A stretch of DNA of 58,224 bases from the IMG/VR virus record IMGVR_UViG_3300036761_003285, positions 1-58,224 of that record, one strand, 5' to 3'. How positions within the stretch are numbered: the stretch's first letter is position 1; the number at the start of each line of letters is the position of its first letter. The notes below the pieces were generated by a model that saw only the letters and a program-made list of their open reading frames with translations, was not told the DNA's origin and did not search any database. This document shows, piece by piece, positions 1,254 through 22,673 of the stretch. The DNA is from a virus. A program made the position numbers and the translations under genes.

Positions 1254-1301
1254 CTATCCAGTTGAACTCCTTTCCCTGAGTATAACTATTTGTACCATCA
1301 A

Positions 1302-1323
1302 ACTAGTACTTGCTCACTAGTAC
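1302..1323 (+). repeat. Short repeated palindrome between genes
   Basis: The 8-mer ACTAGTAC occurs at 1302-1309 and 1316-1323, separated by 6 bases. Because ACTAGT is its own reverse complement, the pair can also form a 6-bp hairpin. It lies in the 82-base gap before the gene at 1336 and might be an operator or an RNA structure. No flanking promoter is convincing. Confidence 0.35.
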
Positions 1324-1335
1324 GAGGCAGACAGT

Positions 1336-3205: not shown

Positions 3206-3225
3206 TCAAAAAGAAGGAGTTAGCC

Positions 3226-4731: not shown

Positions 4732-4763
4732 AAGGTTGTCTAACACACTAGGAGGAACAAGAT

Positions 4764-5360: not shown

Positions 5361-5387
5361 GTACGAAACACGGAAGGAGGCTGAACC

Positions 5388-6185
5388 ATGGCACAGGAGA
5401 AAACCTCGGCGCCTGCCGCGGCGAAGGAGTTGCCTAAAGGTGCAGCAACACGTAGTCCTTACTCGATGGAGGTAACTCTGCCGAGTAGAGGCAAGTTCTA
5501 CGGAAACGCTCTTCCTGACGGAAAGGTCTGGATTCGTCCGATCACCGTCGCAGAAGAGAAATTGTTTGCCAGCAACACGAACGCAACGGATATTGCGGAC
5601 AGAGTGCTCGCCAGGTGTATTGAGTCAGAGTGCATTTCTCTTCAGGAAATGCTTCAGACTGACAAGTACTACCTTCTTCTGACTCTGCGCTCTCTGAGTT
5701 ACGGGTCAGATTACCCGCATAAGATCAAGTGCCGATGCGGGAAAGAGTACGTCCATAAGATGACAGTTCCTGATGGGCTGATGCTCAAGATGGCGACAGA
5801 GACTGACGTCGAGCCGTTCGAGGTCGACCTGCCGATGGTGAAGAAGAAGGTGACATTACGGTTCCTTCGAGGCAAGGACGAAGACCTAGTTGACCAGTAC
5901 ATCGCGCAACTCGAAGGAGCAAATGCAAATGATGGCGATCCGGGGTATGGGTATCGTCTGTCTTTACATATCGTCGCGATCGACGGTGCTGAGCCCAGTA
6001 GTCTCGAGCGACTTCGCTTTGTTGAAAGCATGCATGGCAGAGACTCTCAGACGATCCGTCGGGCGATAAGCGTAAGAGAGACAGGCGTCGATCTAACCTT
6101 GAAGGCAGTTTGTCCCTTCTGTCAGGCAGAGTTCGAAACGCTCCTGACTCTGACCCGCGAGTTTTTTCGCCCGAACGTTTCCTAG
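5388..6185 (+). CDS. gp26-like baseplate/tail assembly protein
   Basis: 265 residues. After a disordered Ala/Pro-rich start, residues about 24-60 read MEVTLPSRGKFYG...VWIRPITVAEEKL, the typical opening of the T4 baseplate gp26 family. It carries two cysteine pairs (CRCGKEY near residue 119 and CPFCQAEF near residue 246) that could bind zinc. It lies between tube and tape-measure genes, the usual location of the tail assembly chaperone. The 3' end overlaps an open +1 frame (6154-6408) through a T6 run, so a longer frameshift product is likely. Start ATG 5388 has a GGAGG site. Confidence 0.85.
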   Translation: MAQEKTSAPAAAKELPKGAATRSPYSMEVTLPSRGKFYGNALPDGKVWIRPITVAEEKLFASNTNATDIADRVLARCIESECISLQEMLQTDKYYLLLTLRSLSYGSDYPHKIKCRCGKEYVHKMTVPDGLMLKMATETDVEPFEVDLPMVKKKVTLRFLRGKDEDLVDQYIAQLEGANANDGDPGYGYRLSLHIVAIDGAEPSSLERLRFVESMHGRDSQTIRRAISVRETGVDLTLKAVCPFCQAEFETLLTLTREFFRPNVS

Positions 6186-6408
6186 CGGTCGTGAGTTTCT
6201 GACTGCTCGGTACAAGCGTCAGTTGGCGTTGGCGATCGGAGGAAACGTGACAATCACCGAGTCATCAGCGATGACCATTCCTGAGTTCGAGCACTTCGAA
6301 CGTGCTTTCAACGAGTTGATGGAAGAGGCAAGAAAGGCTCAGGCAAAGTCAGGTTCGTACGACGCACCTTCGATGCCGGGAACGCTCGGTAGGGCGAGGA
6401 TTCACTGA
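6154..6408 (+). CDS. Frameshift extension of tail assembly protein (or small separate ORF)
   Basis: In the frame +1 to the preceding gene, codons are open from 6154 to the stop at 6406-6408 and encode a plausible helical protein (REFLTARYKRQLALAIGG...FEHFERAFNELMEEARK). There is no ATG before 6271. Possible independent starts are TTG 6223 without a good ribosome site and GTG 6247 four bases after GGAGGA. In tailed phages the two ORFs between tube and tape measure are usually joined by programmed frameshifting. If so, the fused protein would have about 340 residues. The TGATG junction couples it to the tape measure gene. Confidence 0.65.
   Translation, partial: PASFFARTFPSGREFLTARYKRQLALAIGGNVTITESSAMTIPEFEHFERAFNELMEEARKAQAKSGSYDAPSMPGTLGRARIH
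6160..6170 (+). other. Candidate programmed frameshift site
   Basis: The gp26-like frame reads GAG TTT TTT CGC. The six T residues at 6162-6167 followed by C allow tRNA-Phe on the second TTT to re-pair on TTC (+1) or TTT (-2), both giving the frame that stays open to 6408. The overlap of the two frames is only 6154-6185, so any shift must happen here. Confidence 0.55.
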
Positions 6409-7919
6409 TGGCTGAAGAACTTCTAACTGAGCAGATCTTTAGGGCAAAGTTTGACGACCAAGTAACAGGTCCGGCCCAAGAGGCTGTTGACAAAGCGAGG
6501 AAGATGTTTGAAGACTTGGCCTCTTCAATGAAGGCAGAGATCAATTCTGTGCGAGGTGGGGCAGAAGGCGGTCCAAAGTTGTCAGGTACATTCAGAGCAG
6601 AAGTCACGCCCGGGGCTGCAACAACAGCGTCAGCTTCAATTGGGATGACTGATGATTTTCGAATATCAATGATCTACCTCGGTAAGGCTCTTCTCGGAAT
6701 AGTCCAACTTCTCAGAAAGGCTGAGGGGAAAAAGAAACCAGAGGAAGAAGGGGGTACTCTTGCTGAAAAGACAAGGAGATGGGCCGGATTCAAGGAACTG
6801 GCAAGATCTTTCAAAGATGAGATGCACAAGAATTTTTCTCTCATCAAGGGATTCTTGGTCGGTACAATACTGGGCCCGGCAATAGAGGAGTTCTTTGCGT
6901 TTCTTGAGCCTGTTATCACACCATTCATCGAGATGTTTAGGTCACTGATCCGTCATCCTGAGGTGAGAAAGTTCTTGGACTGGATCACCATAAAATCACA
7001 AGAGGCGGCTCGTTCGCTTACTCGAGTATTCGGCCTTTGGATTGAGAAGCATGTTCCGAGGATCACGAAGTGGCTTCAAGCTGAGCTTCCCCGTTGGTGG
7101 GATGAGTTCATCGCTCGTTGGAAGATTCGCGGCAAAGAAATACTGGATTGGATTTCAAACTTTTACGAGAGGTGGATCAAGCCTGTTGTTAAGGCTTTTC
7201 AGGACATGAGCAAAGTTCAGATTGGGGGACAATCACTGGCGGCCTGGATTTTCGATATTGGTATTGCACTCTTTATCATCGGGCAACTCTTTGGGTGGAT
7301 GCTTCCTCTGGTTATGATGTTAGGAAGTGGGCTAGGCTGGCTGTTCCGTTCAGCGCTGATACCATTGGTTCGGTTTCTGTTCTTGACACCCTGGGGTTTA
7401 TTGATTGCGGGATTGTTGGCACTCGGATGGGCAATTCACAAACTCGTTCCTGGAGAGGATTTTCTGGTGAAGTTGAAGAACGCTGGACTGATCATCTGGG
7501 ACTACTGGAGTTGGTTATTCACGAATCTAGGCGGATTCATTGCACACTGGGCAAAAGGGTTGTGGGGGCGGATTACTGGCCGCGGCGGTGAGACAGGAGA
7601 ATACAAGTGGACAAAAAGGGAGTGGGAGCATCTTCCGATTGAGAAGAAGGGCGGTGGCCTTACAGCTGAAGGCGCTGCGGCTGCGATCCCGATCGAGCCG
7701 ACTCTTGAAGGAATGGCTCCTGAGTGGTTAAAGGGTATGTTGCCCGGAGCTACCCCTTCCGTCTCGGGTGCAGAAGGGTCGTCAGCAGGAAGAGTGGAAG
7801 ATCTGCTTTTGAACATCAATAACACACTGAAGGGCGGATTCACGGATACTGCTGACGCGCTTGTTGGCGGCGGAAAAGATCTTGATTTCGGAATGGATCT
7901 TGATTGGAACCCTGCATGA
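6408..7919 (+). CDS. Putative tape measure protein (short)
   Basis: 503 residues. Position directly after the assembly-chaperone pair is where the tape measure is encoded. The sequence is helical, with an amphipathic first half, then hydrophobic segments at about 270-350 (AWIFDIGIALFIIGQLFGW, LLIAGLLALGW) and 360-385, as expected for a tape measure that passes through the host membrane. It is short for the class; at about 1.5 angstrom per residue it would set a tail near 75 nm. Start ATG 6408 overlaps the previous stop. Assignment rests on synteny and hydrophobic pattern. Confidence 0.7.
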   Translation: MAEELLTEQIFRAKFDDQVTGPAQEAVDKARKMFEDLASSMKAEINSVRGGAEGGPKLSGTFRAEVTPGAATTASASIGMTDDFRISMIYLGKALLGIVQLLRKAEGKKKPEEEGGTLAEKTRRWAGFKELARSFKDEMHKNFSLIKGFLVGTILGPAIEEFFAFLEPVITPFIEMFRSLIRHPEVRKFLDWITIKSQEAARSLTRVFGLWIEKHVPRITKWLQAELPRWWDEFIARWKIRGKEILDWISNFYERWIKPVVKAFQDMSKVQIGGQSLAAWIFDIGIALFIIGQLFGWMLPLVMMLGSGLGWLFRSALIPLVRFLFLTPWGLLIAGLLALGWAIHKLVPGEDFLVKLKNAGLIIWDYWSWLFTNLGGFIAHWAKGLWGRITGRGGETGEYKWTKREWEHLPIEKKGGGLTAEGAAAAIPIEPTLEGMAPEWLKGMLPGATPSVSGAEGSSAGRVEDLLLNINNTLKGGFTDTADALVGGGKDLDFGMDLDWNPA

Positions 7920-8476
7920 ATGACAACACAGCAGGTTCAGCAAGGTTGCGAATCAGCGCAAAGGGGATAACCCTCGACTTTGAACTCGAGCAAGGGTTCA
8001 GTGATGGGTACGAGAATCGCTTTGAGGTTCCTGGAGAGACCAAGCAGAGGGCGTCGAATCCGAAAGGTTATGACTGGCGGGGCGGCAAGTTCAAGCCGAT
8101 GCGAGTTGAGATCAATCTTGTCGTGGGTGTGCAGAACGCAATTCAAACTCCGGAGAAGCTCAAAGAAGTCGTTCTGGCCTTTTTCAAGATCGCTCTTCCC
8201 GACAACGTTGAGACTATTCGAACACCGGTTACTGTTCAGGTAGGATCTTGGTTTAGTAGAATCGGATACATCGTAGATTTGACTGTGAAGTGGGACGAGC
8301 CATATGATATTGATACCGGGATGCCTTACCGAGCCAATGTTCAGTTTGAGTTCATCGCTGACTTCTACAACAAGGAGTCAGATCTAACTCTTGACAAGAA
8401 TCCAAAGTCGGCAGATTTTGACTTCCAGTTTATAGGCAAGGCGCGAGGAGGGGGGACGCCCGCCGCGTCTTGGTAA
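7916..8476 (+). CDS. Putative baseplate / tube-initiator protein
   Basis: 186 residues; ATG 7916 overlaps the previous stop as ATGA (a TTG at 7904 is less likely). It is beta-rich, with GYENRFEVPGE near residue 35 and TVQVGSWFSRIGYIVDLTVKW near 105. The latter resembles the core of Afp7/Pvc7-type and related baseplate proteins that adapt the tube to the spike, including the strand IDTGMPYRANVQFEFIADFY (residues about 135-155). It is encoded between the tape measure and a LysM/gp53-like gene, which supports a baseplate role. The precise equivalent is uncertain. Confidence 0.6.
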   Translation: MNDNTAGSARLRISAKGITLDFELEQGFSDGYENRFEVPGETKQRASNPKGYDWRGGKFKPMRVEINLVVGVQNAIQTPEKLKEVVLAFFKIALPDNVETIRTPVTVQVGSWFSRIGYIVDLTVKWDEPYDIDTGMPYRANVQFEFIADFYNKESDLTLDKNPKSADFDFQFIGKARGGGTPAASW

Positions 8477-8488
8477 GGAGCCCGGTAA

Positions 8489-8857
8489 ATGATCAAGCAT
8501 CTTGAAAAACGAGTTGTTGTTGACAACAGGTACGCACTGACTGATATTCATGTTGACGATTTCGTGGGCCCCGGCCGTCGCCGCTATGGCTTGTGGAAGG
8601 CTCCGGCGATCAAGACACTTCCAGAGCTCCCTCTGAGCGAAGGTACGTACTTTAGGTACACAATCACTGCTGCAGATATCGGACGAATTGATCTCATTGC
8701 TTGGAGACACTATCAGGACGTGAATCTCTGGTGGGTCATTGCCCGGTGTAACGGGATTGCGAACCCGTTTGAGGATTTGGTCATAGGGCGGGTTCTTCTG
8801 ATTCCATACAAAGCGCTGGTGGTACAGGCCATCGAGCAAGGTAGAACTTTCGTATGA
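8489..8857 (+). CDS. LysM/gp53-like baseplate wedge protein
   Basis: 122 residues. The C-terminal half (DLIAWRHYQDVNLWWVIAR, then NGIANPFEDLVIGRVLLIP) has the LysM-like pattern of tail X and T4 gp53-type baseplate proteins, in which a residue pair such as LW precedes a strand ending in LxIP. It probably joins wedge or hub parts. Ribosome site AGGAG before ATG 8489; four-base overlap with the next gene. Confidence 0.75.
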   Translation: MIKHLEKRVVVDNRYALTDIHVDDFVGPGRRRYGLWKAPAIKTLPELPLSEGTYFRYTITAADIGRIDLIAWRHYQDVNLWWVIARCNGIANPFEDLVIGRVLLIPYKALVVQAIEQGRTFV

Positions 8858-10005
8858 TAATTGCTGATACTGTAGATGTTCAGGTGGGTGGCAACACTGT
8901 GAATTTTCAAAAGGTGGGTTCGCTTTCCGTTCGAGTATTCGAATCGATCTATGGCAAGTCTCAGTATCATCTTCGCTTTATGGACAGGGATGCGTCGCGG
9001 TGGAACAAGATCGCACAACAGACCGATATCTTAGTGAATATACGAATAGGTGCTGTTACGAACGTTGACACAAAGGGATTTTGGTCGAAGTGGAAGGAAG
9101 CAAGAGTTACAGGGTTGAAGCTTGTGTCGACCGCGGACAAGATTGATGTGACAATCACTGCCGAAGACGAGTTTTTTGACTTCAAAAGAAGGGCCACTCA
9201 GCGAGTCTTCATCAAGAAGTCCATTTCGGAGATGATCGAAGCTATTGCCAAAGAATACATTCTTGATACTGACCTGATTGAGACCACTGACAAGTATACA
9301 CTTCGGCAGGGATGGATGACTGATTTTGAGTTTCTTACCGAAGAGTTGCTTCCTCGAGCGCGGGCAAAGAATCCTGAGGAAGTTTTTCTTCTTTACATCA
9401 GACAGGATAGCCCCCCAAAGTTGGTTTTTACTTCGCTGGATAAGCAATCGCGGTCAGGAGAACCAAAGCTGAAGTTTCGTTGGGAGCCCACCGGGGCGTC
9501 GAAATCCGAGTTTGATCCTCTTGGCAGAGCATTCATCACTGAGTATACATCTACAACTAAGTTGGATCCCTCCAACTTCGGGACGAAAACAGTGACATTT
9601 GATGTGAATAAAGCCCAGGGTGTTCCTTACATGGTTTCCTTTCTTGCGAATGATAGTACTTACAACTATCCACTACTCGGAGCAACAAAACCTGACCCGG
9701 TATCGCCCCTGCCCGCAAAAGTGCAGAGCATCTTAATGGACGCTCTCGATCTTGACTTTCCAACTGAGCTCAAGACACGAACAGATTGGAAGTTGCGAAT
9801 GAATGAGCGGGTAGCAATTTCAACTCTACTTCTTCATGCCGCACAGATTGGTGAGATAGCCGAGATTGACGCAAAGGTTGTAGGCGGGCAGAAGCTTTTC
9901 AGCTCAGGAAGATATCTGATCTACGCGCTGTATCATATCATTTCTGGTAGAGGTTCGAAAACACTGACATTCTTGGAGCGTCGTGGTACTGTAAAGGGAA
10001 AATAA
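8854..10005 (+). CDS. Baseplate hub protein (gp27 / late control D-like)
   Basis: 383 residues following the LysM-like protein. The pattern of a beta-rich N-terminus (ADTVDVQVGGNTVNF...), a central region with SISEMIEAIAKEYIL near residue 123, and a C-terminal QIGEIAEIDAKVVGG...FSSGRYLIYALYHIISG matches hub proteins of the gpD/gp27 group. There, the last segment is the conserved tail in which the hub gains its loaded LysM partner. It forms the ring on which tube and spike sit. Its stop overlaps the next start (TAATG). Confidence 0.75.
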   Translation: MIIADTVDVQVGGNTVNFQKVGSLSVRVFESIYGKSQYHLRFMDRDASRWNKIAQQTDILVNIRIGAVTNVDTKGFWSKWKEARVTGLKLVSTADKIDVTITAEDEFFDFKRRATQRVFIKKSISEMIEAIAKEYILDTDLIETTDKYTLRQGWMTDFEFLTEELLPRARAKNPEEVFLLYIRQDSPPKLVFTSLDKQSRSGEPKLKFRWEPTGASKSEFDPLGRAFITEYTSTTKLDPSNFGTKTVTFDVNKAQGVPYMVSFLANDSTYNYPLLGATKPDPVSPLPAKVQSILMDALDLDFPTELKTRTDWKLRMNERVAISTLLLHAAQIGEIAEIDAKVVGGQKLFSSGRYLIYALYHIISGRGSKTLTFLERRGTVKGK

Positions 10006-10646
10006 TGACCCCACAACAATTTCTACAACTACTCAGACAAAGGAAAGTCAAGTACAAGGTGGTTGATCGTTATGTAGATGTAGAAGGTGACTGTAACATA
10101 GGTGGTCTAGGTCTAGTTGAGATTCCCGTACAGTTTCGTGTAGTTACAGGAAATTTCCACTGTGACCACAACCAACTCACGTCACTAGAAGGAGCTCCTG
10201 TTAGTGTGGGTGGTCGTTTCCACTGTGACCACAACCAACTCACGTCACTCGAAGGAGCTCCTGTTAGTGTAGGTGGAGATTTCTACTGTTATTCCAACCA
10301 ACTCACGTCACTTCGTCGCGGTCCTCGAGATGTAGGTGGAGATTTCTACTGTTATTCCAACCAACTCACGTCACTCGAAGGAGCTCCTGTTAGTGTAGGT
10401 GGTATTTTCTACTGTCACCACAACCTCCTCACGTCACTTCGTCGCGGCCCTCGAGATGTAGGTGGTCGTTTCCACTGTGACCACAACCAACTCACGTCAC
10501 TAGAAGGAGCTCCTGTTAGTGTAGGTGGTGGTTTCTACTGTGACCACAACTCCGTCGAATTCACGGAAGCTGATATCAAACGAGCCATGGAACAGAGTAG
10601 ACATAGTAGTGTTGAAAGTGTGATAGATGGGCTGGTGGGGTGTTGA
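10005..10646 (+). CDS. Leucine-rich-repeat-like protein (copy 2, complete)
   Basis: 213 residues and the complete counterpart of the truncated gene at the window start. Residues 1-48 (MTPQQFLQLLRQRKVKYKVV...) form a unique N-terminal cap; then come about six full 21-residue units with core LTSLEGAPVSVGG or LTSLRRGPRDVGG and F-x-C-x-x-N, then the helical tail SVEFTEADIKRAMEQS. Unit order differs from copy 1 although individual units are almost identical. It sits within the baseplate operon, with its start overlapping the hub stop. Function unknown; a solenoid binding protein or virion decoration is a guess. Confidence 0.9.
   Translation: MTPQQFLQLLRQRKVKYKVVDRYVDVEGDCNIGGLGLVEIPVQFRVVTGNFHCDHNQLTSLEGAPVSVGGRFHCDHNQLTSLEGAPVSVGGDFYCYSNQLTSLRRGPRDVGGDFYCYSNQLTSLEGAPVSVGGIFYCHHNLLTSLRRGPRDVGGRFHCDHNQLTSLEGAPVSVGGGFYCDHNSVEFTEADIKRAMEQSRHSSVESVIDGLVGC
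10147..10551 (+). repeat. 63-bp tandem repeat array, copy 2
   Basis: Six complete 63-bp in-frame units plus a partial first unit. The SLRRGPRDVGG variant occurs twice here and once in copy 1. Units such as GGIFYCHHN followed by SLRRGPRDVGG are shared with copy 1 in a different order, as expected from recombination between repeats. Confidence 0.9.
10506..10640 (+). repeat. 135-bp direct repeat, right copy
   Basis: Matches 514-648 except at one base (a at 10603). Same orientation and same reading frame as the left copy. Beyond 10640 the two sequences diverge at once (tgttgag here, cagcc-type context in the left copy differs), so the end is sharp. Confidence 0.9.
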
Positions 10647-10648
10647 GT

Positions 10649-13045
10649 ATGGATTTGTATTCACTACTTCCGGCTGTCATCAGATTCAAAGACTCGCTCA
10701 CTAAGGGAAGTGTCGGTGAGGGCGTCGTTGAGCGAATCATCTACATGATGGAGCAGGAAGGAGAAACAACAGGAGATCTCATAGCGGGGTTACTTGATCA
10801 GATCAATCCTGATGAATGCGATGCAAAGTTCTTGATCTACATCTCGTTGACCCTCGGGTTTGCCGTTTCAGAGAATGCCGGTCAACCTCCGTCTGAAGAC
10901 TTTGCCCGTTGGTTTACAAAGAATCTCGTCAATTTCTACAAGATACGCGGGCGTCCGTTCTCATGGAAGAAGCAGTGGCAGTACTTAGAGACTGGTGGTG
11001 ACAGATATCTTGAGGCCTGGGAGCTGTGGAAGGACATTCCATACGAGAGGGGTCACTACTATAGGTACGGCGGCGGGGATGCGTACTATGGGCTACTTCA
11101 TGCTGCCCGTGTAGATCTCTTTAGAGAGATCAGCGGCATCAAAGAGTTCCTGCCTGTTCTCGAAGCCATGGGTCACATGCCTACTATTGAGTGGGTTCGG
11201 CCGATCCATGTTCTGCTTCGGATGAACTACTTCACTCCTGATTTCTACGAGACCGCCGAGTTGATCTCGGATGACAATCGTGATTTTGAAGCGCTTTACC
11301 AGCCCGCAGATCAGTTGTTGAATCCATCAGATGAGTTGGACATCATCATTTCCTGTCTTGCCTCGTGTGAAACAGTGTGTGAGTCCGGGCAAGAAACAGG
11401 CTGCCTGACTTCATGCGAAGCTGATTGTGAACCGATGTACGAAGCAGCCGGCCCGCCCGGCCCGCCCGGACCCCCGGGCCCGCCAGGAGGACCCGGAGCT
11501 GATGGGTGCGACGCATGCGTTCAAGGTGTGGTCTTCCCATCAGATTCAGGAGGGAAGATTGTTATTGTACTTTTCGACTACTTTGAATGCTGGGAAGTGG
11601 GAGAGTTGATCTGCGTTGAGATTCTTGATAAGCCATCTGGTCCTGTCCCGCCCACTGCTCCAAACCTCTTTAAGTTCGAGACAACCATAACCCAGATTGA
11701 GCACTACGGCGGTGTTCTGGCAAAGATTCATCTGGACAAGTTCCAGGCAGGCACAGGCATCAAGACTGATGATTATGCGATTGTGTGCCATGGAGCGTGT
11801 TCTTGTGACGCTTGTGAAACGCAAACAACCTTTGACGCGTCCACAGGAGCTCAGCTAATCACGTTCGAAACTCACAATCCATACTGCTGGCGGAAAGATG
11901 AGCCTGTCTGTGTCTATGTTCCTGATCCTACGTGGAGATATGTCAGTACAGGCAATGTAACACAGAAGCCTACTTTCAATCTGTCAAAAAAGAAGTGGTA
12001 CGTTGAGCTTTCCGTTCAGAAGCCGCCCATTGCCAGCGGAACGATCAATCTGAAGATCGTTATCTGCCATGGAGGGTGCCCTTACACAGGACCTACCGGA
12101 CCTCGTGGTCCTACAGGACCAGCCGGGAGACCCACTGGTTTTACTGGTCCTCAGGGTCCTACAGGACCAGCAGGAGGCGGTACCGGAGGAGGCCCCACAG
12201 GACCAACCGGAGAAACTGGTTGTGACGCGTGTGTCATTGCGACGTATCTCGGAGTGGATGGTTCAGGCAGGATCAAATTCACTGTTCCTGATGATGAGCG
12301 ATGTTGGACTGTGGGAGAAGATGTTTGTGTTTCAAACATCATTCCAACGGGCGGTTCTGAACCGCCAAAGAGATTCACTGGTGTAGTGATTGACAAAGGC
12401 GCTGGATACATCACTACGGACATGCTGAATAGCAATGTGTTCATGGATTGGCAGACAAATGAGAAAGCTACAATCTGTCACGGCCCTTGCGCTTGTGATG
12501 CATGTGAAATCGTTACTGATTATGAGACTGAAAGTGCGGGGAAGTGGCTCAAGTTTTATACACTTCACTACCGGTGCTGGAAGGTAGGAGAATCTGTTTG
12601 TGCAAGTGTGATTTCGTGGAATTACCAATCAGATGGTACGATTGCGTCAGTGACAAGATTGCCCAGCCTAAATTGGGAAGTAAAGATTGATCTGGATCTT
12701 GATCCTGCTCATACTGGTTCCTACATCGGCATTGTGACTGAGATTTGTCATGGGAGTTGTGCTCCTACTGGCCCTACTGGCCCTACTGGTGCAGGTTTTA
12801 CTGGTCCTCGTGGTCCCACCGGTCCTGCGGGAAGTGGTACCGGAGGAGGTGGTCCCGGTACTTGTCCTGCTTGCTCTACATATCCACCTCCGGGAACTAT
12901 GAAAGTGCTCTGGCAGACAACAGGGGGGAGTTATCAAACCTCGAAGCCAACGCTCAAGGCTGGGGCGTTCTGGGAAACGACCTTGTATTGTTCTAATAAC
13001 CAGTACTGTTTGGTAAACGATCAAGTTTGTCTGCCACTGACCTGA
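10649..13045 (+). CDS. Tail protein I-like N-terminus fused to collagen-like, Cys-module fibre
   Basis: 798 residues from ATG 10649 (GTG 10640 in frame is unlikely). Residues about 1-240 resemble phage tail protein I / baseplate wedge proteins: a helical start, then RWFTKNLVNFYKIRGRPFSW, a typical feature of that family. After an acidic Cys-rich linker comes collagen-like GPPGPPGPPGPP (DNA about 11448-11500), then four modules with the pattern CDAC...CW-x-x-x-E-x-x-C...ICHGxC and a fifth partial one. GPTGPRGPTGPAG blocks (about 12088-12220 and 12763-12860) separate them in pairs. Likely a trimeric receptor-binding fibre attached to the baseplate. Gly-X-Y tracts in phage fibres form trimeric stalks. 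Confidence 0.75.
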   Translation: MDLYSLLPAVIRFKDSLTKGSVGEGVVERIIYMMEQEGETTGDLIAGLLDQINPDECDAKFLIYISLTLGFAVSENAGQPPSEDFARWFTKNLVNFYKIRGRPFSWKKQWQYLETGGDRYLEAWELWKDIPYERGHYYRYGGGDAYYGLLHAARVDLFREISGIKEFLPVLEAMGHMPTIEWVRPIHVLLRMNYFTPDFYETAELISDDNRDFEALYQPADQLLNPSDELDIIISCLASCETVCESGQETGCLTSCEADCEPMYEAAGPPGPPGPPGPPGGPGADGCDACVQGVVFPSDSGGKIVIVLFDYFECWEVGELICVEILDKPSGPVPPTAPNLFKFETTITQIEHYGGVLAKIHLDKFQAGTGIKTDDYAIVCHGACSCDACETQTTFDASTGAQLITFETHNPYCWRKDEPVCVYVPDPTWRYVSTGNVTQKPTFNLSKKKWYVELSVQKPPIASGTINLKIVICHGGCPYTGPTGPRGPTGPAGRPTGFTGPQGPTGPAGGGTGGGPTGPTGETGCDACVIATYLGVDGSGRIKFTVPDDERCWTVGEDVCVSNIIPTGGSEPPKRFTGVVIDKGAGYITTDMLNSNVFMDWQTNEKATICHGPCACDACEIVTDYETESAGKWLKFYTLHYRCWKVGESVCASVISWNYQSDGTIASVTRLPSLNWEVKIDLDLDPAHTGSYIGIVTEICHGSCAPTGPTGPTGAGFTGPRGPTGPAGSGTGGGGPGTCPACSTYPPPGTMKVLWQTTGGSYQTSKPTLKAGAFWETTLYCSNNQYCLVNDQVCLPLT

Positions 13046-13047
13046 GT

Positions 13048-14439
13048 ATGTCTTCTCCTTGTGATATTGCTACAAAGATGGGACTTGCCAAGGAAGCGAT
13101 TGACGGCCTTGTTAGTCGCTGTTTCACCGGAGTAACTCCCCCAGCAAAAGTTCCTACAGTTTGGTCTGACATGTGTGGTGACACGAGCGTCAGTCTGGCT
13201 CGCCAGATGTATGTGGATGTCGTGGCCCTGGTGGCAAGAACAGATAACACAGGCCATTTAACTGGTTGGGTTGATCCCGGAGCTCCTCCTACTTGTATCA
13301 CAGGTGCTTGGCTTGATAGCTTCATTGCTGCAGTCAATGCAGTTCTGTGTGAGTGTTGTCCTGATGGGATGGATGATTGCACAAGCAACTATTCTCCCTC
13401 AAGCACGCTTCAGATCAAGATCTGCTATCGTTCAGTCACGCTTACTTGGGACGGGGAAGCTGATGATTATTGGGTTGAGTACTGTTTTGTCGCTCCTCCG
13501 TATCCTTCGTATCCGTATATCTGCCTTCAGAAAACTGAAATGCCCGGTTCGTGTATAAAGTCAGGGAATAGTGGCTGGATAACTCCAAAAACTTACACAA
13601 TCCCTGCTGATACGGCTTGCAGTCGTTCAGAAAACTGGTGCTTGTACTGGCGTGTTAAGCCGAGATGTTGTGACAGAACGGAGGGAGATCCTTGTCCTAC
13701 TTGGGAGGAGGGGCCTTTTTCTGCAATCCAAAAAATACCTGTTGAAAATGGAAACGAGGGGTTCGCACCAGATGGATATCTTGATTGGTATCCGCCCGGA
13801 TCGAACTGTATTCCTTGCAGCGGAAGTTCAAAGCTTTGCGTGAAGTGGAAAGTTGGTCCTTGTTCTCGGCTTCTCAAACTCTGGGTGCGTCTCTTCACTG
13901 GTGGTGGAGCATGGACGGAAATAGTTCTAGATCAAATTGACGTTACAACGCAGAAGCAAGGGCAATCAGAGTATCCAATCAATCCAGCGTGGTGCACAGG
14001 AGGGGGGCCGTATGTGTCCGCGTGTGTTTTTGGAAAAGTATTCTCGAGCTCAGGAGTTGAGTGTGATATTCGTACTACGTCAACACTTCCTTTTCTGCCT
14101 CCTGGTCCTAGTTGTGCTTCGATGAATGGGTGTCAGGGTACTCATCAGCCATGCACGCCCGGGGCGATTTACCCGCTTACTTCATGGATAGTTATTAACG
14201 GAGGTCCAACCAAGAATCTGACGCCGTGGAAATGTGCGGGAGCGCCCGGCGGAGTACTCTACACGGTCTGGAGAGTAGTTGAGACAGTATACAACAGAAC
14301 TTATGCGTACGGGAATGTCAGTCAAGTTGCCACGCCCGACTGCCCGAACGGATTCCAGCTTATTGATCTTCCACCGTCGTGGACCCCCGAATACTTTACA
14401 TATCCCGGTTATATGAGACTTGAACTCGGTTGTTTCTGA
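13048..14439 (+). CDS. Cys-rich putative tail fibre or virion protein
   Basis: 463 residues from ATG 13048, directly after the collagen-like fibre (a TTG at 13027 would overlap it). About 30 cysteines are spread along the chain, often as CC or C-x-x-C (LCECCPDG, RCCDRTEGDPC, CIPCSG). The middle looks like repeated beta-domains of fibronectin type III flavour (VTLTWDGEADDYWVEYCF; LCVKWKVGPCSRLLKLWV). No enzyme motif and no signal peptide. Context suggests a second component of the host-contact apparatus. The cysteine abundance, shared with the upstream fibre, is unusual for a cytoplasmically folded phage protein. Confidence 0.65.
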   Translation: MSSPCDIATKMGLAKEAIDGLVSRCFTGVTPPAKVPTVWSDMCGDTSVSLARQMYVDVVALVARTDNTGHLTGWVDPGAPPTCITGAWLDSFIAAVNAVLCECCPDGMDDCTSNYSPSSTLQIKICYRSVTLTWDGEADDYWVEYCFVAPPYPSYPYICLQKTEMPGSCIKSGNSGWITPKTYTIPADTACSRSENWCLYWRVKPRCCDRTEGDPCPTWEEGPFSAIQKIPVENGNEGFAPDGYLDWYPPGSNCIPCSGSSKLCVKWKVGPCSRLLKLWVRLFTGGGAWTEIVLDQIDVTTQKQGQSEYPINPAWCTGGGPYVSACVFGKVFSSSGVECDIRTTSTLPFLPPGPSCASMNGCQGTHQPCTPGAIYPLTSWIVINGGPTKNLTPWKCAGAPGGVLYTVWRVVETVYNRTYAYGNVSQVATPDCPNGFQLIDLPPSWTPEYFTYPGYMRLELGCF

Positions 14440-15760: not shown

Positions 15761-17926
15761 ATGGCTTTGTGGTACGAGTGCGGTGCTGGATTTGTAAAAA
15801 CCCAAGTTGCCAGGGCAACAATTGGGGCAGATGTTTACTTGTGTTGCCCCGGGCCCTCTCTTGCCAAAGTCAATGATTTAGATCTTCATATTCCCGGAGT
15901 GGTGGTAGCCGCAATCAACACAGCATATCCAAAGATTAGACCGAATATCTGGTTGGGATTGGATGAACCGCAGTGTTACGACCGTCGCCTGTGGTTTGAG
16001 GGATTTGTGAAGATTACTCGAGGAAATTATAAGTTACTTGAGTGTGAAGGGAAGCCCATCAAAGATCTACCTTTCGTGTTTTTTGCTGACTGTGATTCAC
16101 CGAGTGCTGGAATTCGTGAAGTTGACTACATCCTTCAGCAGCGCGCTCACGATGTGAGGTTTGTTTGGGCGAAGAACACCTTGGTGTTTGCAATTCATGT
16201 TCTTGTGTGGTTAGGGGCTCGAAAGATCCATTTTGTTGGTTGTGATATGGGCGGGAACAAAGACTACTACGATTCTCGCATTCTTTCTGATGAAGAGCGG
16301 GCGAAGAATCAACTGCTCTATACACAGCAAGTTGAGTGGTTGCGTGAGTTTGTCCTGAAAGCCAAGGTTAGTGCAATCGAGTGCGTCAGTTGTACGGAAG
16401 GGTCTCCGTTGAATTCGATTATGCCATTTGTTCAACTAAGTGATGCTCTGAAAGCCTCTCGGAAACAGGCGCCCGAAGAGGCAGGTGAACTGATGCATTC
16501 GTCGAAATCATTTGAAGTTACAGCGACTCGAGAGTGGGCTAATGTTGTTCCTACGATTCCCGAAGCTGTGATGGTGGGAATCTCAAAGGCTGATGAAGAT
16601 CTCATTGATTGGTGGTGGTATTGGTTTTCAAAGACAAACTCTTACCCCGTACAGTTTGTTGATTTTGGCATGTCTGAAGAGGCCAGAAAGAAGTGTCGTT
16701 CTCTTGGTACTGTGATAGATCTCAATGACCCAATCAAAGAAGACGGGCAGCGGGGCTCGCTGAGAAAGCCGTTTGCTGCGCTTCTGACACACGCTGCACG
16801 GACAGTTTTCACAGATATTGATGCCGAGATTCGTGGCAATCTTGTATCTTTGTTCAAGCAAGATCTTGGTCCTCGAAAGTTCGCTGCAGCACAAGATTGG
16901 GCTGCTTCGCTAGCCTATCGAAAGAAAAACCCAAACACGGGACCTGTCATTTGCTCGGGTGTGTTTGTCTTTGATTACGGATCTGAAGTTGTAAAGAAGT
17001 GGGCTGATGCCATTCATACCCAGAAGGCAAAGTACAATGGTGATCAGTTGTATCTCAATGAGCTCTACTACAAGTGCGGCCTGTCAGACATCGTCCTTCT
17101 TGATGGCAAGGTTCATCGAACGCCACAGGAAGGCGATGATCCCGGAGTGTTGATCATGCACTACGGGGGCACGGCAAAGAATGCAGCCAGACGCGCGTGG
17201 GCTGCATTCAATTCAGGAATTCTTAGTGACCTATCCAAGGCCTATGAGTACAACTGGCGCCAGGCTTCGTTCAGTTTCACAAGAGGTGTAATTCTGGGGG
17301 CAGATCAAGCACAGGAGTGGATGCTCGAATGGTGGTGGGAGAACTACGATGCGCATAATACTCTACCTGTTTGCTTTGTTGATTTTGGTATGACCAAAGG
17401 GGCGCTTGATTGGTGCAGGCATCACGGAACAGTTACAGACCCAATTCACTTTGGTGGATACGCATGGTTCAAGAAGCCTTTGGCTACACTTGAAACCGTA
17501 TTTGCGAAAACGATCTGGCTCGATATAGACTGCCAAGTTCTGGGCAATCTTGATCCGCTCTTTGAGTACTGTAAAAGCAACGGTATCGGCATGACAGTGG
17601 ATCGAGGAACACCTGATCGGTACAAGCAGAGGTTGCCTCCCGAGGCAACCATCTACAACAGCGGCTGCATCGTGTACAACTTCAGAGACCCGGTCATGCC
17701 CCAGTGGGCGAAGATGACAGCGATCGTCTACGAGCAGCAGCCCGGGGATCAAGAAACGCTGGCACTGACGCTCAGAAGGTATGCAGTCGGCAGGATTCGT
17801 TCTATACCGAAAGAGCTTGTTCGACTACGCCTCGAAGAAGACGGCCCATGTATTGTGAGGCATTGGACTGGGCCCGTCGGCAAGGACAGAATCAGAGCAA
17901 TGAGTGTACAGGCAGAACTCAGATGA
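15761..17926 (+). CDS. Three-domain glycosyltransferase (DUF115-like plus two GT8-like domains)
   Basis: 721 residues. Residues 1-245: CCPGPSLAKVND (28-39), AINTAY and FVGCDMGGNKDYYD (158-171), the pattern of DUF115/Maf-type sugar transferases. Residues about 265-490 and 505-715 are two homologous GT-A-like domains. Each has a W-W-W helix (DWWWYWFSKTNSYPV; EWWWENYDAHNTLPV), then F-V-D-F-G-M, and a metal-binding DxD (TDIDAEIRGNL, D352/D354; LDIDCQVLGNL, D588/D590). Each also carries a late GDQ motif that fits GT8-type enzymes. The following gene is a third copy of this domain. Acceptor unknown; virion proteins or host surface glycans are both possible. Confidence 0.75.
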   Translation: MALWYECGAGFVKTQVARATIGADVYLCCPGPSLAKVNDLDLHIPGVVVAAINTAYPKIRPNIWLGLDEPQCYDRRLWFEGFVKITRGNYKLLECEGKPIKDLPFVFFADCDSPSAGIREVDYILQQRAHDVRFVWAKNTLVFAIHVLVWLGARKIHFVGCDMGGNKDYYDSRILSDEERAKNQLLYTQQVEWLREFVLKAKVSAIECVSCTEGSPLNSIMPFVQLSDALKASRKQAPEEAGELMHSSKSFEVTATREWANVVPTIPEAVMVGISKADEDLIDWWWYWFSKTNSYPVQFVDFGMSEEARKKCRSLGTVIDLNDPIKEDGQRGSLRKPFAALLTHAARTVFTDIDAEIRGNLVSLFKQDLGPRKFAAAQDWAASLAYRKKNPNTGPVICSGVFVFDYGSEVVKKWADAIHTQKAKYNGDQLYLNELYYKCGLSDIVLLDGKVHRTPQEGDDPGVLIMHYGGTAKNAARRAWAAFNSGILSDLSKAYEYNWRQASFSFTRGVILGADQAQEWMLEWWWENYDAHNTLPVCFVDFGMTKGALDWCRHHGTVTDPIHFGGYAWFKKPLATLETVFAKTIWLDIDCQVLGNLDPLFEYCKSNGIGMTVDRGTPDRYKQRLPPEATIYNSGCIVYNFRDPVMPQWAKMTAIVYEQQPGDQETLALTLRRYAVGRIRSIPKELVRLRLEEDGPCIVRHWTGPVGKDRIRAMSVQAELR

Positions 17927-18585
17927 AGCAAGGTGTTCTAGTTGGTTGTTCGAGAGAGCAAGAGGACTTGCTCGAATGGTGGTGGGGGTGCTACAGTAAG
18001 CACAATACCCTTCCAGTCTGTTTTGTCACTTACGAGTTTGATCTAAAGGACAGTCTTCGTTTGTTGGAAAGAGGCGAAGTGGTTCAAAGTAACGAACCTT
18101 TCTCCAAAGGGACATTCAGGAAGGTGACAGCATTTAGTTTGTCGCCATTTGATGTTAATCTCTGGCTGGATCTTGACTGTGAAGTTCGAGGCGATCTCAG
18201 TCCGATTTTCTCGCTCTTTTCCTCGGGTTGTGTTTTCTGCCCCCGGGGCCCTCGCAAGTGCGGAACAAATGATCCATATGGTTGGTTCAAGATGTGTAAC
18301 TCCGGGTCATGGGTGAGAGATACTGGTCTCATTCTTGCTGATCGAGACGGTCGTTTGTATCGAAAGTGGTTTGCTGATGTGCAAGCTTTCAGCCATATGT
18401 ATCACGGTGAAAACGAGACGCTTGTGGTTGTTGCTGACCGTGAAGGACTTCCGATTGGCGAGGTTTCAGATCAGATGTTTCAATCGTGTCATCTTAATGT
18501 ATACCCGAATCCACTCGTGTTCCACTGGATCGGAGGCCGCGGGAAGTATCTACTCAGAGAGAGGATCGCCCGTGAAAGACTTTGA
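17923..18585 (+). CDS. GT8-like glycosyltransferase, single domain
   Basis: 220 residues from ATG 17923, overlapping the previous stop as ATGA; the open frame extends to 17704, but that part is antisense-like noise inside the preceding gene. It is a paralogue of the two GT8-like domains upstream: LLEWWWGCYSKHNTLPVCFV (17-36) and LDLDCEVRGDLSP with DxD at 83-85. The middle contains FCPRGPRKCG. Tandem duplication of one domain is the simplest origin. Acceptor unknown. Confidence 0.75.
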   Translation: MKQGVLVGCSREQEDLLEWWWGCYSKHNTLPVCFVTYEFDLKDSLRLLERGEVVQSNEPFSKGTFRKVTAFSLSPFDVNLWLDLDCEVRGDLSPIFSLFSSGCVFCPRGPRKCGTNDPYGWFKMCNSGSWVRDTGLILADRDGRLYRKWFADVQAFSHMYHGENETLVVVADREGLPIGEVSDQMFQSCHLNVYPNPLVFHWIGGRGKYLLRERIARERL

Positions 18586-20962
18586 AGTTATTAACCCTAT
18601 TATTACTGGGAAACAAGAGCTGAGCTACCGAACAGGGCAAGGGAAGTATTATCACTTCAACGTGAGGGGTGATACTTTTGCTCTTGATGTGAACTCACTG
18701 ATGTTAATTCGAGGCCTGAAAGAGAATCTACCTCCTCCAAGTGACGAAGTTTCTCAGTTTCCATTCTGTCCTAATCGCAATGTGCTGGCACTTCTATTCT
18801 GTCTTACTCATCAGTGCAATCTGAAGTGCAAGTATTGTTACGTTGATCGGTTGTATTCATCTAACGATCGGATGACTCCCGAGATTGCCGCTACAGCGTT
18901 GACAACCTTGGTCAATCCTGATGCTGTGAGAAAGCAGGGGCTTCGGATCAGCTTTTTCGGAGGAGAGGCACTACTTGAATTCGAACTTCTCAAGCAGATT
19001 GTCTCGCTAGTCAGAACAGCTTTCCCGTCCCCCTGCCCTGTGCAGTTCAGTCTCACGACGAACGGGACGTTGTTGACTAAACCGATTGCTAAGTTCTTGG
19101 TTGAGCATAGCTTTTCAGTGATACTCTCGTTGGATGGCCCTCGTGAGCTCCACAATGAGACACGAATCTCTAGAGGAGGAGCGGGCTCCTTTGATGTTGC
19201 TCTTGAAGGACTCACTTTGTTGAACGAAGTAGCTCTGAAGAAGATTACTCTGAGAGCAACTTTCTTTCCCGAAAATCCTCGAATCATGGAGCGATTGGTG
19301 TTCTTGAATGCACTTTGTGATCAGGGCTTGGCTGCGAATGTCTCAATTGAACCTTCGATCTTGACTGAAAGTGAATGTGCCGCACAAGAGATTGATCAGT
19401 TTCAGGACAAGATCAACGCGGCAAGACTCGAGGCTGAGTACGCTGAGGCTACTGATTGGCTCCTCGGGCGATTGCGGCAGAAGAAGCCTGCGCGTTTCCA
19501 CAATATCATGCTCTATGCTGAGCGATTACTCTATCGTCGAAAGTACTGCAGTGATTGCGGAGCTGGCGTTGGGTATATCTCCATAGGACCAACAGGGAAG
19601 ATCTTTGCCTGCCACAGAGAGACCAACAGCTTGATCGGTGATCTCTCTCAGGGAGGGATAGACGAAGCACTAAGAGCACAGTGGGTAGACAATCGCTACT
19701 ATGTCAACAAAGAGTGTCGGCGGTGTGATCTTCGAAACGTTTGCGGAGGAACTTGCCGAGAGCATTCGCTTGGATCAATGGGTGATATCTTTGATGTTGA
19801 TCCGGTTCGTTGTACTTTCAAGCGACTGTGGATCCACTCAGCTGTGTATCTGATCTCCGAGCTTCCATCTGCTGATCGGACAAGTCTGATTCTGCAGAAG
19901 AAGCCACAGAAGGTCGAACTTCCTGATTCAAAGAAGGAGCGGTTCAACCTTGTTCGGGAAGCTGGCGGGTTTGGTGATATCATCTCCATTGGAGGTGCTG
20001 CTGTTCAGATCAAGAAGGAGTTCCCGAACTCGGAGATTTGCTTGTACTTGCCTGATGATTTCGTTGATGTTGCGAAGCATCTTCGTGAAATCGACCAAGT
20101 AGTAGGTCTTGGTTCTGTTGAGACACTATCTAAGCAACGTCGTGTTCGAGGCGAGAAGTTTGATTCTGGAAAGTACACATACCTTTCGAAAGTGGCTAAC
20201 CGGGGCTTAGTTGTTGATCTCTGGTGTCCTGCAGTCAAGTACGAGCAGCAAGAGAAGGATCGCATTCAGCACACACGTTCGCAGATCTTTGCAAGTGTGA
20301 TATGTAAGGAAGACTCACATGCGATTCCTCGTTGGTTCTCAACTCCTGCAGAACGTGTAAAAGCAAGTAGCTATCTGAACAAGGCATTTGGAGATCCTAG
20401 TGATACTGGACCAACAATCGCCCTGGCTGCAAGAGGCACAAAGGCGGAGAAGAATATTTCAGAGCACCATTTGCAGGATCTGCTTACTTGGTTGATCTCT
20501 AAGAACAGCAATGTTGTGTGGATGGATTGTTTGGATCCCTCTGTCATTCTACACGGGTTTGCCAACAACAAGATAGTTTGGCCGAATGTATCATTCTGTG
20601 AATCCGTAGCAATTCTCGAGCAGTGTGATCTTCTCATTTCTGTTGATACTGGAATCTTTCATGCTGGTGTGGCTGCTCGAGTTCCTACTGTTGGTGTGTT
20701 TGGGATGACAGATGGGAACCCTTATATTGGATTCTACCCCTTGACGTACGTCGTACAGAATGAAGTGCCCCATGAAGGCATTTGCACGATACCTTGCAAT
20801 TCATCTTCGGAAAAAGGACACATTGTAGGTTGTAGTCTGGCATGCGCGCGGATGCAGAACTTGTCGTTTGATGAGTTGAAGCTGGCTGTTCTTTCGGCAA
20901 TGAAGACGGCATCAGCTCCTCAGTTTCAGGAGTACCGGTTGCGCCTATTTGATGAGAAATGA
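18572..20962 (+). CDS. Radical SAM/SPASM enzyme fused to GT9-type glycosyltransferase
   Basis: 796 residues from GTG 18572, chosen because AGAGAGG lies just upstream and the longer frame is noise within the previous gene. Residues about 70-300: radical SAM domain with CNLKCKYC (C82, C86, C89), FFGGEALLE (128-136), TTNGTLL and LSLDGP (186-190). Residues 326-414: SPASM Cys set (CSDCG, CHRE, CRRC, CGGTC, C414) for auxiliary Fe-S clusters. Residues about 455-796: GT9/heptosyltransferase-like domain with GGFGDIISIGG (465-475) and SVDTGIFHAGVAARVPTVGVFG (split: SVDTGIFHAG at 690-699). SPASM enzymes usually modify peptides. Fusion with a glycosyltransferase is rare to my knowledge. Confidence 0.85.
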   Translation: MKDFEVINPIITGKQELSYRTGQGKYYHFNVRGDTFALDVNSLMLIRGLKENLPPPSDEVSQFPFCPNRNVLALLFCLTHQCNLKCKYCYVDRLYSSNDRMTPEIAATALTTLVNPDAVRKQGLRISFFGGEALLEFELLKQIVSLVRTAFPSPCPVQFSLTTNGTLLTKPIAKFLVEHSFSVILSLDGPRELHNETRISRGGAGSFDVALEGLTLLNEVALKKITLRATFFPENPRIMERLVFLNALCDQGLAANVSIEPSILTESECAAQEIDQFQDKINAARLEAEYAEATDWLLGRLRQKKPARFHNIMLYAERLLYRRKYCSDCGAGVGYISIGPTGKIFACHRETNSLIGDLSQGGIDEALRAQWVDNRYYVNKECRRCDLRNVCGGTCREHSLGSMGDIFDVDPVRCTFKRLWIHSAVYLISELPSADRTSLILQKKPQKVELPDSKKERFNLVREAGGFGDIISIGGAAVQIKKEFPNSEICLYLPDDFVDVAKHLREIDQVVGLGSVETLSKQRRVRGEKFDSGKYTYLSKVANRGLVVDLWCPAVKYEQQEKDRIQHTRSQIFASVICKEDSHAIPRWFSTPAERVKASSYLNKAFGDPSDTGPTIALAARGTKAEKNISEHHLQDLLTWLISKNSNVVWMDCLDPSVILHGFANNKIVWPNVSFCESVAILEQCDLLISVDTGIFHAGVAARVPTVGVFGMTDGNPYIGFYPLTYVVQNEVPHEGICTIPCNSSSEKGHIVGCSLACARMQNLSFDELKLAVLSAMKTASAPQFQEYRLRLFDEK

Positions 20963-21798
20963 AAACGATTGACGTTGCTGTTTTCGTGAGGGACAGATAC
21001 GAGCATCTCGTGTTCTGTACTTCCTGGTTGAAGAACAGCAAGGAGTGCCCCGGAGTCGTGTTTAATCGGGTTGCCTATGACGACAGTAGTGCTGATTCAA
21101 GGGTTGGCGAGTTTCTTGGGGGTTCATATGACAAAGTAGAGTCGGTGCCGAGAGAAGTCACTGCTGTTGATCCTGAGCAGCGAATCGGATGGGCGCGGAG
21201 ATTGGCAGTACAGAACTTCCTGAAAAAGTCGATTGCAAACTTTCTGCTGCTTCTCGATAGTGATATCATCGTCACAAAAGAAACAATTGCAGAAGCTGTA
21301 AGAGATTACGAGGCGCTTAATGATTGGGTTGAGGTCGGAGGAGGTACCCTCTACGCCATCAGTCATACAACCGGGCAGATTCATGCGAACGGGAAACACT
21401 TCTCGAAGGTGGCTCTTACAGGTGATGCCCATATGCTGTTCAAGAGAGAGCATCTTGAGCGCATTGGAAACCACTTCAGTACGAAGCCAAAAGGATTTGC
21501 TGACAACCAGATTCAAGCGATTCGTGATCAAGGTAAGGTCTACTTTACTCGTATCAGTCCTCCTTATCAAGTGCAACACATTGGGTTCGGTGAGGGCGTA
21601 TCACTTGTCTACAAGCAGGAGAAGTTCAAACCCTCGTGGACAATGCGACCGTACTGGACCCATGAATCTAATCGAAGGATTCTTCAGGTGGAGAACTTTG
21701 ACGTATTACACTACATCAATTGCATCAATGCTGTGGGCGGCATCAGCGCACCTGAGGAGTACACGAAAACCAAAGGAATAGCCAATGAACACAAGTGA
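20959..21798 (+). CDS. GT2-like glycosyltransferase
   Basis: 279 residues, ATG 20959 overlapping the previous stop. It has a GT-A layout: AVFVRDRYEHLVFCTSWL at the N-terminus in place of the usual family-2 start, AYDDSS (nucleotide contact region), and LLLLDSDIIV with DSD at 100-102 for metal/UDP-sugar binding. GGGTLYAISH and a histidine near residue 213 follow, consistent with an inverting enzyme. It ends the cluster of sugar enzymes behind the fibre genes. The acceptor is unknown. Confidence 0.75.
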   Translation: MKTIDVAVFVRDRYEHLVFCTSWLKNSKECPGVVFNRVAYDDSSADSRVGEFLGGSYDKVESVPREVTAVDPEQRIGWARRLAVQNFLKKSIANFLLLLDSDIIVTKETIAEAVRDYEALNDWVEVGGGTLYAISHTTGQIHANGKHFSKVALTGDAHMLFKREHLERIGNHFSTKPKGFADNQIQAIRDQGKVYFTRISPPYQVQHIGFGEGVSLVYKQEKFKPSWTMRPYWTHESNRRILQVENFDVLHYINCINAVGGISAPEEYTKTKGIANEHK

Positions 21799-22231
21799 TG
21801 TGGTACGGAAAGAACTTCGGGGTGAAGTTGTCTTCACACAGGTTTCTGCCTTCGGTGAGCGCCGTTTAGTACAGACAAATCTAGTTGTTAACAACGCCTA
21901 CAGGCAGCTTGCATATCTTCTTGGGTATACAAGCCTTGCCTGTGTCAATCGCATGCGATTCGGAACCAGTGGGACCGCGCCGGCAATGGGAGATCTCAAC
22001 GTCGTTCCCGTACCGGCTGTTGGTTTTCTCGTTACCACTAACACCTTTCCTAGTGCCACAAGTGTGAAGTTCACAGCGAGTTGGGGCCCGGCAGAATCAT
22101 CCCCGGCGTCCTTTCAAGAGGTGGGCCTTTTCTCCTCTGACGGCATACTGGTTGCACGAGTTGTGTTTTCTCCAATGATGAAGTCTGTCGGGTGGACCTG
22201 GACGATCGAATGGACGCTGGCATACGTATGA
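21785..22231 (+). CDS. Small appendage/tail fibre protein
   Basis: 148 residues, overlapping the previous gene by 14 bases. Beta-rich, with RMRFGTSGTAPA near residue 57 and SFQEVGLFSSDGILVARVVF near 108, then WTWTIEWTL. This pattern is common in small phage tail and fibre-tip proteins. It is paralogous to the next gene (shared order MxFGTG/S, EVGL/EAGL, VxRxVF, W-T/N-W-T). Likely a virion surface component. Confidence 0.65.
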   Translation: MNTSDVVRKELRGEVVFTQVSAFGERRLVQTNLVVNNAYRQLAYLLGYTSLACVNRMRFGTSGTAPAMGDLNVVPVPAVGFLVTTNTFPSATSVKFTASWGPAESSPASFQEVGLFSSDGILVARVVFSPMMKSVGWTWTIEWTLAYV

Positions 22232-22238
22232 GGTGAAT

Positions 22239-22673
22239 ATGAAAGGCAGATTGGTCGTTTCTGAGCACAACCTGAAAACAGGGAAGCGTCGAGTGGTTGT
22301 TGACGTACAGAACATGATTCTGAACAACATGTACGAGCAGTTCATCAAGTTGTTCGGATGTGCGGGGAATGAGGCTTACTTGGCCAAGATGATCTTTGGG
22401 ACGGGGAACGATGCCCCTGATCCTACTCAGAGCTTTCTCAGTCGTCCCATCACTCCTGCAAAGAATGTGATTTGCACTGTTGATCCAGTCAACTATTCGG
22501 TGCTGGCTACTGCATCACTGCTATCTGATGAGGGAAATGGCTTTCCGATTTCCGAAGCTGGCCTGCTGACCTACGACAACGTTCTGGTCACTCGAGCGGT
22601 TTTCGATACTAGGATGAAGACTTCAGATTTTGTATTCAATTTCAACTGGACGGTCTATACCAAGGCACCGTAG
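22239..22673 (+). CDS. Small appendage/tail fibre protein, paralogue
   Basis: 144 residues from ATG 22239, eight bases after the previous stop (AGGTG site; GTG 22233 also possible). Shares FGTGNDAPDP, SEAGLLTYDNVLVTRAVF and FNFNWTVY with the preceding protein, so the pair is a tandem duplication. It closes the structural and glycosylation transcription block; a 188-base gap follows. Confidence 0.65.
   Translation: MKGRLVVSEHNLKTGKRRVVVDVQNMILNNMYEQFIKLFGCAGNEAYLAKMIFGTGNDAPDPTQSFLSRPITPAKNVICTVDPVNYSVLATASLLSDEGNGFPISEAGLLTYDNVLVTRAVFDTRMKTSDFVFNFNWTVYTKAP

Follow-up and report, generated by a model that had tools for sequence, protein, structure and literature searches.

What is known of radical-SAM (rSAM) maturases of the SPASM type comes mostly from peptide natural products, along with a handful of enzymes. 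Those closest to the protein described here are the thioether maturases PapB, SCIFF/CteB and QhpD. PapB, the freyrasin ranthipeptide maturase (NF047865), forms Cys–Asp/Glu thioethers and takes Cys-Xn-Asp, with n = 0-6, as well as Glu (PMC9413430), its substrate being a small peptide with CX3D motifs. SCIFF enzymes install a Cys–Thr link, and QhpD (TIGR03906) makes thioethers on a protein subunit (PMC8172795); the SCIFF maturase CteB (TIGR03974; 5wgg and 5why) has a clostridial 45-residue peptide as its substrate, and QhpD, which is non-viral, makes few links in an enzyme subunit. Among glycosyltransferases of family 9 (GT9) the points of comparison are WaaC, WaaF and TibC (BAHT), of which TibC glycosylates a protein (PMC4358343).

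We analysed a stretch of 58,224 nucleotides of viral DNA (IMG/VR record IMGVR_UViG_3300036761_003285, hereafter the window), which encodes a single genuine two-part enzyme composed of an rSAM half and a heptosyltransferase-like GT9 half (Table 1). Where PapB has a small peptide, the window system has a large tail protein bearing the motif C-[E/Q]-x-x (C[EQ]xx) as its probable substrate; it also includes a GT9, which CteB and QhpD lack as well.

Table 1. Positions of the fusion gene, its parts and its neighbours in the window
Feature	Position	Strand	Basis
Probable substrate fibre: Tail_P2_I-like N-terminus, C[EQ]xx segment, collagen-like repeats, Cys-rich domains	10640..13045	+	PHROG tail-fibre matches; L298; 14-fibre alignment
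CLASCETVCESGQETGCLTSCEADCEP segment, candidate modification site	11354..11434	+	C[EQ]xx motif, before collagen-like repeats
Second Cys-rich protein, 30 Cys, possible extra substrate or fibre part	13027..14439	+	Sequence alone; no family match
Probable multidomain glycosyltransferase	15761..17926	+	Glyco_transf_8 0.0051, below cut-off; G010 homologue in matching place
Probable GT8-like glycosyltransferase, true start likely near 17923	17704..18585	+	C-terminal repeat domains of 15761-17926 are similar; unmatched in Pfam
Radical-SAM/SPASM–GT9 fusion protein, 796 aa	18572..20962	+	Pfam, NCBIfam, AlphaFold2 and Foldseek; fusion also in G010
CX3CX2C motif of the radical-SAM core (C82, C86, C89)	18815..18838	+	Invariant or nearly so in 16 relatives
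SPASM cysteines C329-C414	19556..19813	+	Alignments, full-length CteB match
GT9 (heptosyltransferase-like) domain	19946..20959	+	Pfam 1.4e-7; family profile vs 3tov 2.1e-22, WaaC 8.1e-21
GGFGD motif	19964-19978	+	In GT9 domain
SVDTG motif	20639-20653	+	In GT9 domain
Four C-terminal Cys	20783-20845	+	In GT9 domain
Probable GT2-like glycosyltransferase	20959..21798	+	Glycos_transf_2 0.0039, below cut-off; usual GT9 neighbour, order conserved in relatives
Two short tail-associated phrog_5417-family proteins	21785-22231 and 22233-22673	+	PHROG 1.5e-15, 5.7e-13; conserved downstream neighbours

The preliminary description of this DNA had reported rSAM, SPASM and GT9 parts in one unbroken frame, and had proposed to check this by profile searches, structure prediction and a search for the same fusion in other phages; each of these bore it out. 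The frame runs from a GTG start to its stop with no internal stop codon. Pfam Radical_SAM (PF04055) matches residues 78-242 at 3.1e-13 (50.7 bits, above the cut-off of 29.5) and Glyco_transf_9 (PF01075) residues 615-715 at 1.4e-7 (31.5 bits, above the cut-off of 22). The Pfam SPASM match is sub-threshold (0.036, 14.8 of 21.5 bits); this part is recognized through NCBIfam SPASM-maturase models covering residues 69-440, with PapB (7.3e-55) the best and the SCIFF maturase at 1.4e-50, and through its cysteines. The SPASM set, previously placed at residues 326-414, is complete (C329, GX4C347, C382X2C385X5C391X3C395 and C414) and invariant or nearly so in the alignment of 16 relatives, its first conserved member being C329 and not C326. 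Judged by these sequence features, with the seven-Cys auxiliary-cluster pattern present, the first half belongs to the radical SAM superfamily and its SPASM subfamily. The NCBIfam scores for PapB (186 of 340 bits), SCIFF (172 of 425) and QhpD (166 of 453) fall, like every listed equivalog match, under the curated cut-offs, so that the window rSAM is filed as a member of none of these families and its exact reaction is not readable from the family. The AlphaFold2 model (mean pLDDT 88.8) has two confident domains separated by a low-confidence linker at residues 445-451. Foldseek matches the first to CteB (5why, 1.7e-22) and the second to GT9/WaaF/WaaC/TibC, with 3tov, 1psw and WaaC among the matches. 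CteB is also the best solved match of the rSAM family profile (1.1e-82); it aligns over the entire rSAM part with all SPASM Cys, and its N-terminal beta segment is similar.

The second half shares with WaaC/WaaF and TibC the predicted GT-B fold and the GxGD and SVDxG motifs, which, together with a Pfam match above cut-off, place it in glycosyltransferase family 9. Its GGFGD (D469) and SVDTG (D692) motifs align with WaaC Asp13 and Asp261; the position of WaaC Lys192 is taken by Arg in the alignment, and the donor may therefore not be ADP-heptose. Four cysteines lie towards the C-terminus, as in TibC (PMC4358343), with a spacing (CX3C-X11-CX3C) unlike that of TibC (339/342/358/370), and a TibC-type iron finger was rejected. 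Unlike WaaC, WaaF and TibC, the window GT9 is fused to an rSAM.

A single-protein scan of viral contigs with the window enzyme returned no relatives; phage relatives were gathered through the tail sheath of the window and then through an rSAM alignment. The same rSAM is present in about 20 related viruses, of which most have the GT9 as well. The independent contig G010 has the same fusion intact, with 41% identity running through the junction, and was the only hit of a scan for fused forms. A third fusion, L158 (IMGVR_3300009149_008379, within 4570-7017), is interrupted by one TAG codon in frame, at a position that is Gln in the window; amber recoding was considered and set aside, with no sign of TAG recoding across the remaining locus. 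In G011/G015, G013 and most later relatives the rSAM and GT9 are separate adjoining genes, often followed by a GT2 homologue and then by phrog_5417-like genes, which makes the fusion a local variant of a wider system. Fusion in some genomes and adjacency in others is a classic sign of shared function, and we read the two halves accordingly. The GT9 is not obligatory, since none was seen in L165, L170 and L322 within the flanks, of up to 10 kb, from which gene contexts were read. In L175 (10387-12774) the GT9 gene is joined to an apparent additional glycosyltransferase domain.

Upstream of the enzyme genes, related phages encode tail proteins with tandem C[EQ]xx repeats. Their cysteine content is extreme: G013 has one protein of 850 aa with 108 Cys and another of 493 aa with 74, and the maximum, in L171, is 131 in 615 aa. 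Over 1045 repeats the +1 residue is Glu in 51% and Gln in 32%; Thr, Val and Ser are favoured at +2 (Thr 31%), and Gly, Ala, Ser and Thr at +3. The carriers vary between Tail_P2_I-like fibres and proteins that we call siphophage-like tail-tip proteins from their sequence and position, without a Pfam match. When a C[EQ]xx array was modelled with AlphaFold2, the result was a long helix (pLDDT 52), which was set aside as uninformative. The 1045-aa Baseplate-J-like ORF of G013 (L028:4529-7666) has, by eye from its translation, an apparent intein-like insert (CLAGETEISL...VHNC).

The association of these repeats with the rSAM clade was scored with a single criterion, used alike for clade members and cellular controls, namely at least 4 matches to C[EQ]xxC or CxxxC[EQ] in a non-rSAM ORF, beating shuffles; it replaced an earlier strict Cys-content filter on the cellular controls, which would miss several weak clade members. 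The viral records are metagenomic and mostly fragments, with gene contexts from flanks of at most 10 kb, and were collected by tail-sheath or rSAM similarity, save L311, G019, G024, G048 and G049, which came from repeat patterns. A C[EQ]xx protein lies nearby in 19 of 21 clade members and near none of 78 cellular rSAM relatives, whose best score is 1; a family GT9 is likewise absent near all 78. The remaining two clade members, L170 and L175, score 3, a value reached in 0 of 500 shuffles. Without the four pattern-derived entries among the 21 the counts are 15/17 against 0/78. The Fisher probability of the pairing (p = 2e-18) overstates the evidence, since the clade members are related.

The reverse direction gave a concordant picture. 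Many matches of a CExx x4 scan were of low complexity, and a whole-record search found, among the matches listed, an rSAM in 12 of 14 records with genuine arrays and in 0 of 14 decoys, diverse arrays having been split from low-complexity decoys by the variety of their xx dipeptides with a line set after seeing the data. Of the two genuine-array records without an rSAM, L200 has an array that reaches the contig end, and the contig of G002 stops right after the fibre. A CETGCExxCETG scan yielded 12 genuine-array records, seven with an rSAM, one with a weak rSAM-like neighbour (L413) and four with none (L200, L410, L412 and L415), the array or fibre of these four lying at or near the end of the examined stretch. 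A DNA pattern search for seven Cys at i+4 returned mostly antisense or low-complexity sequence. We consider it well supported that members of the rSAM clade are paired in the genome with C[EQ]xx tail proteins and, in most cases, with a GT9. This pairing speaks against the idea that the repeats form a metal- or disulphide-based structural cord while the rSAM modifies something else nearby: Cys-richness makes metal binding or disulphides plausible from sequence alone, but the co-occurrence of rSAM and repeats in both search directions would go unexplained, and we hold this idea to be improbable. Still less probable, to the point of being very doubtful, is a phage-made secreted RiPP-like peptide, signal or toxin that is no part of the virion; the closest cellular families are indeed RiPP maturases, yet the C[EQ]xx segment sits inside large tail proteins, encoded, wherever the sequence upstream is complete, after the baseplate genes V, W and J.

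In the window, the C[EQ]xx segment of the fibre at 10640-13045 (SCETVCE...SCEADCE) is followed by collagen-like GPP/GPT repeats. Its motif score is 4, against a shuffled mean of 0.27 (0 of 500 shuffles as high), and in an alignment of 14 fibres C240 is invariant and C236, E241, C256 and C260 are nearly so. Its homologue L298, encoded directly after a Baseplate_J gene, matches Tail_P2_I (PF09684) at 1.5e-6 (28.6 bits, cut-off 20.6); the match falls just short of the cut-off in L027 and is absent from the window fibre, which aligns with L298. No C[EQ]xx array was seen in the second Cys-rich protein (13027-14439). The preliminary description had taken the upstream Cys-rich fibre proteins for the substrate of the fusion. 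Genome context, in both search directions, speaks strongly for the fibre at 10640-13045; the fusion itself proved not essential, and the conserved feature is the C[EQ]xx segment of that fibre, not Cys-richness in general.

The assembly of this neighbourhood calls for some caution. G002 (L036, L298) is about 99% identical to window positions 1-10487 and continues with baseplate V, W, J and a first fibre gene, which the window is without; the break, at about 10005-10646, falls inside an LRR-like repeat gene, so that the window is possibly misassembled or deleted there. A misassembly near 10.5 kb would leave the fusion untouched and may affect the exact fibre neighbourhood. The LRR-like repeat genes (LTSLEGAPVSVGG..FYC; window 1-663 and 10005-10646) vary in copy number among near-identical phages. 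The two Cys-rich fibre genes of G011 flank a 38% homologue (L027:12680-13378) of the probable glycosyltransferase at window 48639-49271.

What could be the role of the fused enzyme? We favour, with a probability of roughly 0.55, a phage-encoded tail-maturation enzyme whose rSAM half would cross-link the fibre and whose GT9 half would glycosylate it; the genomic pairing, the reverse searches and the fusion or adjacency of the two genes all count towards this reading. Our inferences are that the fibre is the substrate and that thioethers are formed, as well as what we say of sugar and acceptor. The substrate of the rSAM half is very probably the C[EQ]xx tail protein, in the window the fibre at 10640-13045, where the enzyme would join a Cys sulfur to a nearby side-chain carbon (of Glu/Asp or Thr) inside C[EQ]xx, and such cross-links would stiffen or protect the fibre. 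That the product is a non-alpha thioether we put at about even odds. The closest models and structures are thioether maturases, the PapB, SCIFF, nif11 and QhpD models match 16 of 16 members, and the repeats offer Glu at +1 and Thr at +2. With the Asp/Glu precedent of PapB, the Thr precedent of SCIFF and the protein-subunit precedent of QhpD, our leading guess is a thioether formed by Cys inside C[EQ]xx; Glu cannot be the sole acceptor, given the share of Gln at +1. The rSAM might act on the same tail protein to give Cys–C-alpha bonds, C–C cyclophanes, epimerisation or inter-chain fibre bonds, since sactipeptide, cyclophane and other peptide-maturase models match 16/16 members too; over the full length, however, CteB and PapB, both of which form non-alpha thioethers, match best, and Cys is invariant in the repeats, so we rate these other products as rather unlikely.

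For the GT9 half of the proposed tail-maturation enzyme, transfer of a nucleotide-activated sugar to the same protein seems probable, the acceptor being perhaps Ser/Thr, Cys or the collagen-like part, and the glycan may be lengthened by the glycosyltransferases encoded nearby. In favour of fibre glycosylation, the GT9 half matches in structure TibC, which glycosylates a protein. A role on the host surface, in which the GT9 half would alter lipopolysaccharide or capsule (to keep out other phages, for instance) and the fusion would only co-regulate two activities, would fit the solved GT9 relatives found by sequence, mostly lipopolysaccharide heptosyltransferases, and the several further glycosyltransferases nearby. 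It fits poorly with the position of the GT9 in most members, where the gene is joined to the rSAM or next to it and close to tail genes, and with its absence near the cellular relatives, and we hold such a role to be unlikely.

In the rSAM tree (75 rows, quick search, SH-aLRT support only) the 25 family rows and L322, which is repeat-paired too, are split from the cellular homologues by a branch with support 96. The viral rSAMs L178-L180, L319-L321 and L323, some of them tandem pairs, adjoin C[EQ]-rich proteins yet lie outside the clade; the pairing may therefore have more than one origin. L330, on a Planctomycetota MAG contig with ordinary cellular genes alongside, is probably a prophage.

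The data show a phage clade of rSAMs consistently paired with extremely Cys-rich structural tail proteins, usually together with a sugar transferase. The preliminary description knew of no such phage system, and no matching one was found in the open-access full text and cultured-phage records searched. Tentatively, and at somewhat less than even odds, these loci might represent an undescribed class of virion maturation, in which a few to more than 100 C[EQ]xx repeats per tail-tip or fibre protein would receive multi-site rSAM cross-links and GT9 sugars to give stapled, sugar-coated tails. If true, these phages would use radical chemistry to harden or decorate the virion part in contact with the host, and the rSAM/repeat pairs would be natural multi-site cross-linking systems.

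The rSAM matches from human-gut 'Bacteriophage sp.' records were set aside: in the two that were inspected, L421 and L422 (MT836452, MT835472), the rSAM resembles a SCIFF maturase and has neighbours of bacterial appearance. In a cultured phage, Erwinia phage Huxley (NC_031127), tandem Cys-rich ORFs with SCSGxCSGGCSGCSG repeats (L423:3170-3559 and 3569-3961) precede two radical-SAM genes and either run antisense to annotated hypothetical genes or overlap them; this locus is a possible analogue.
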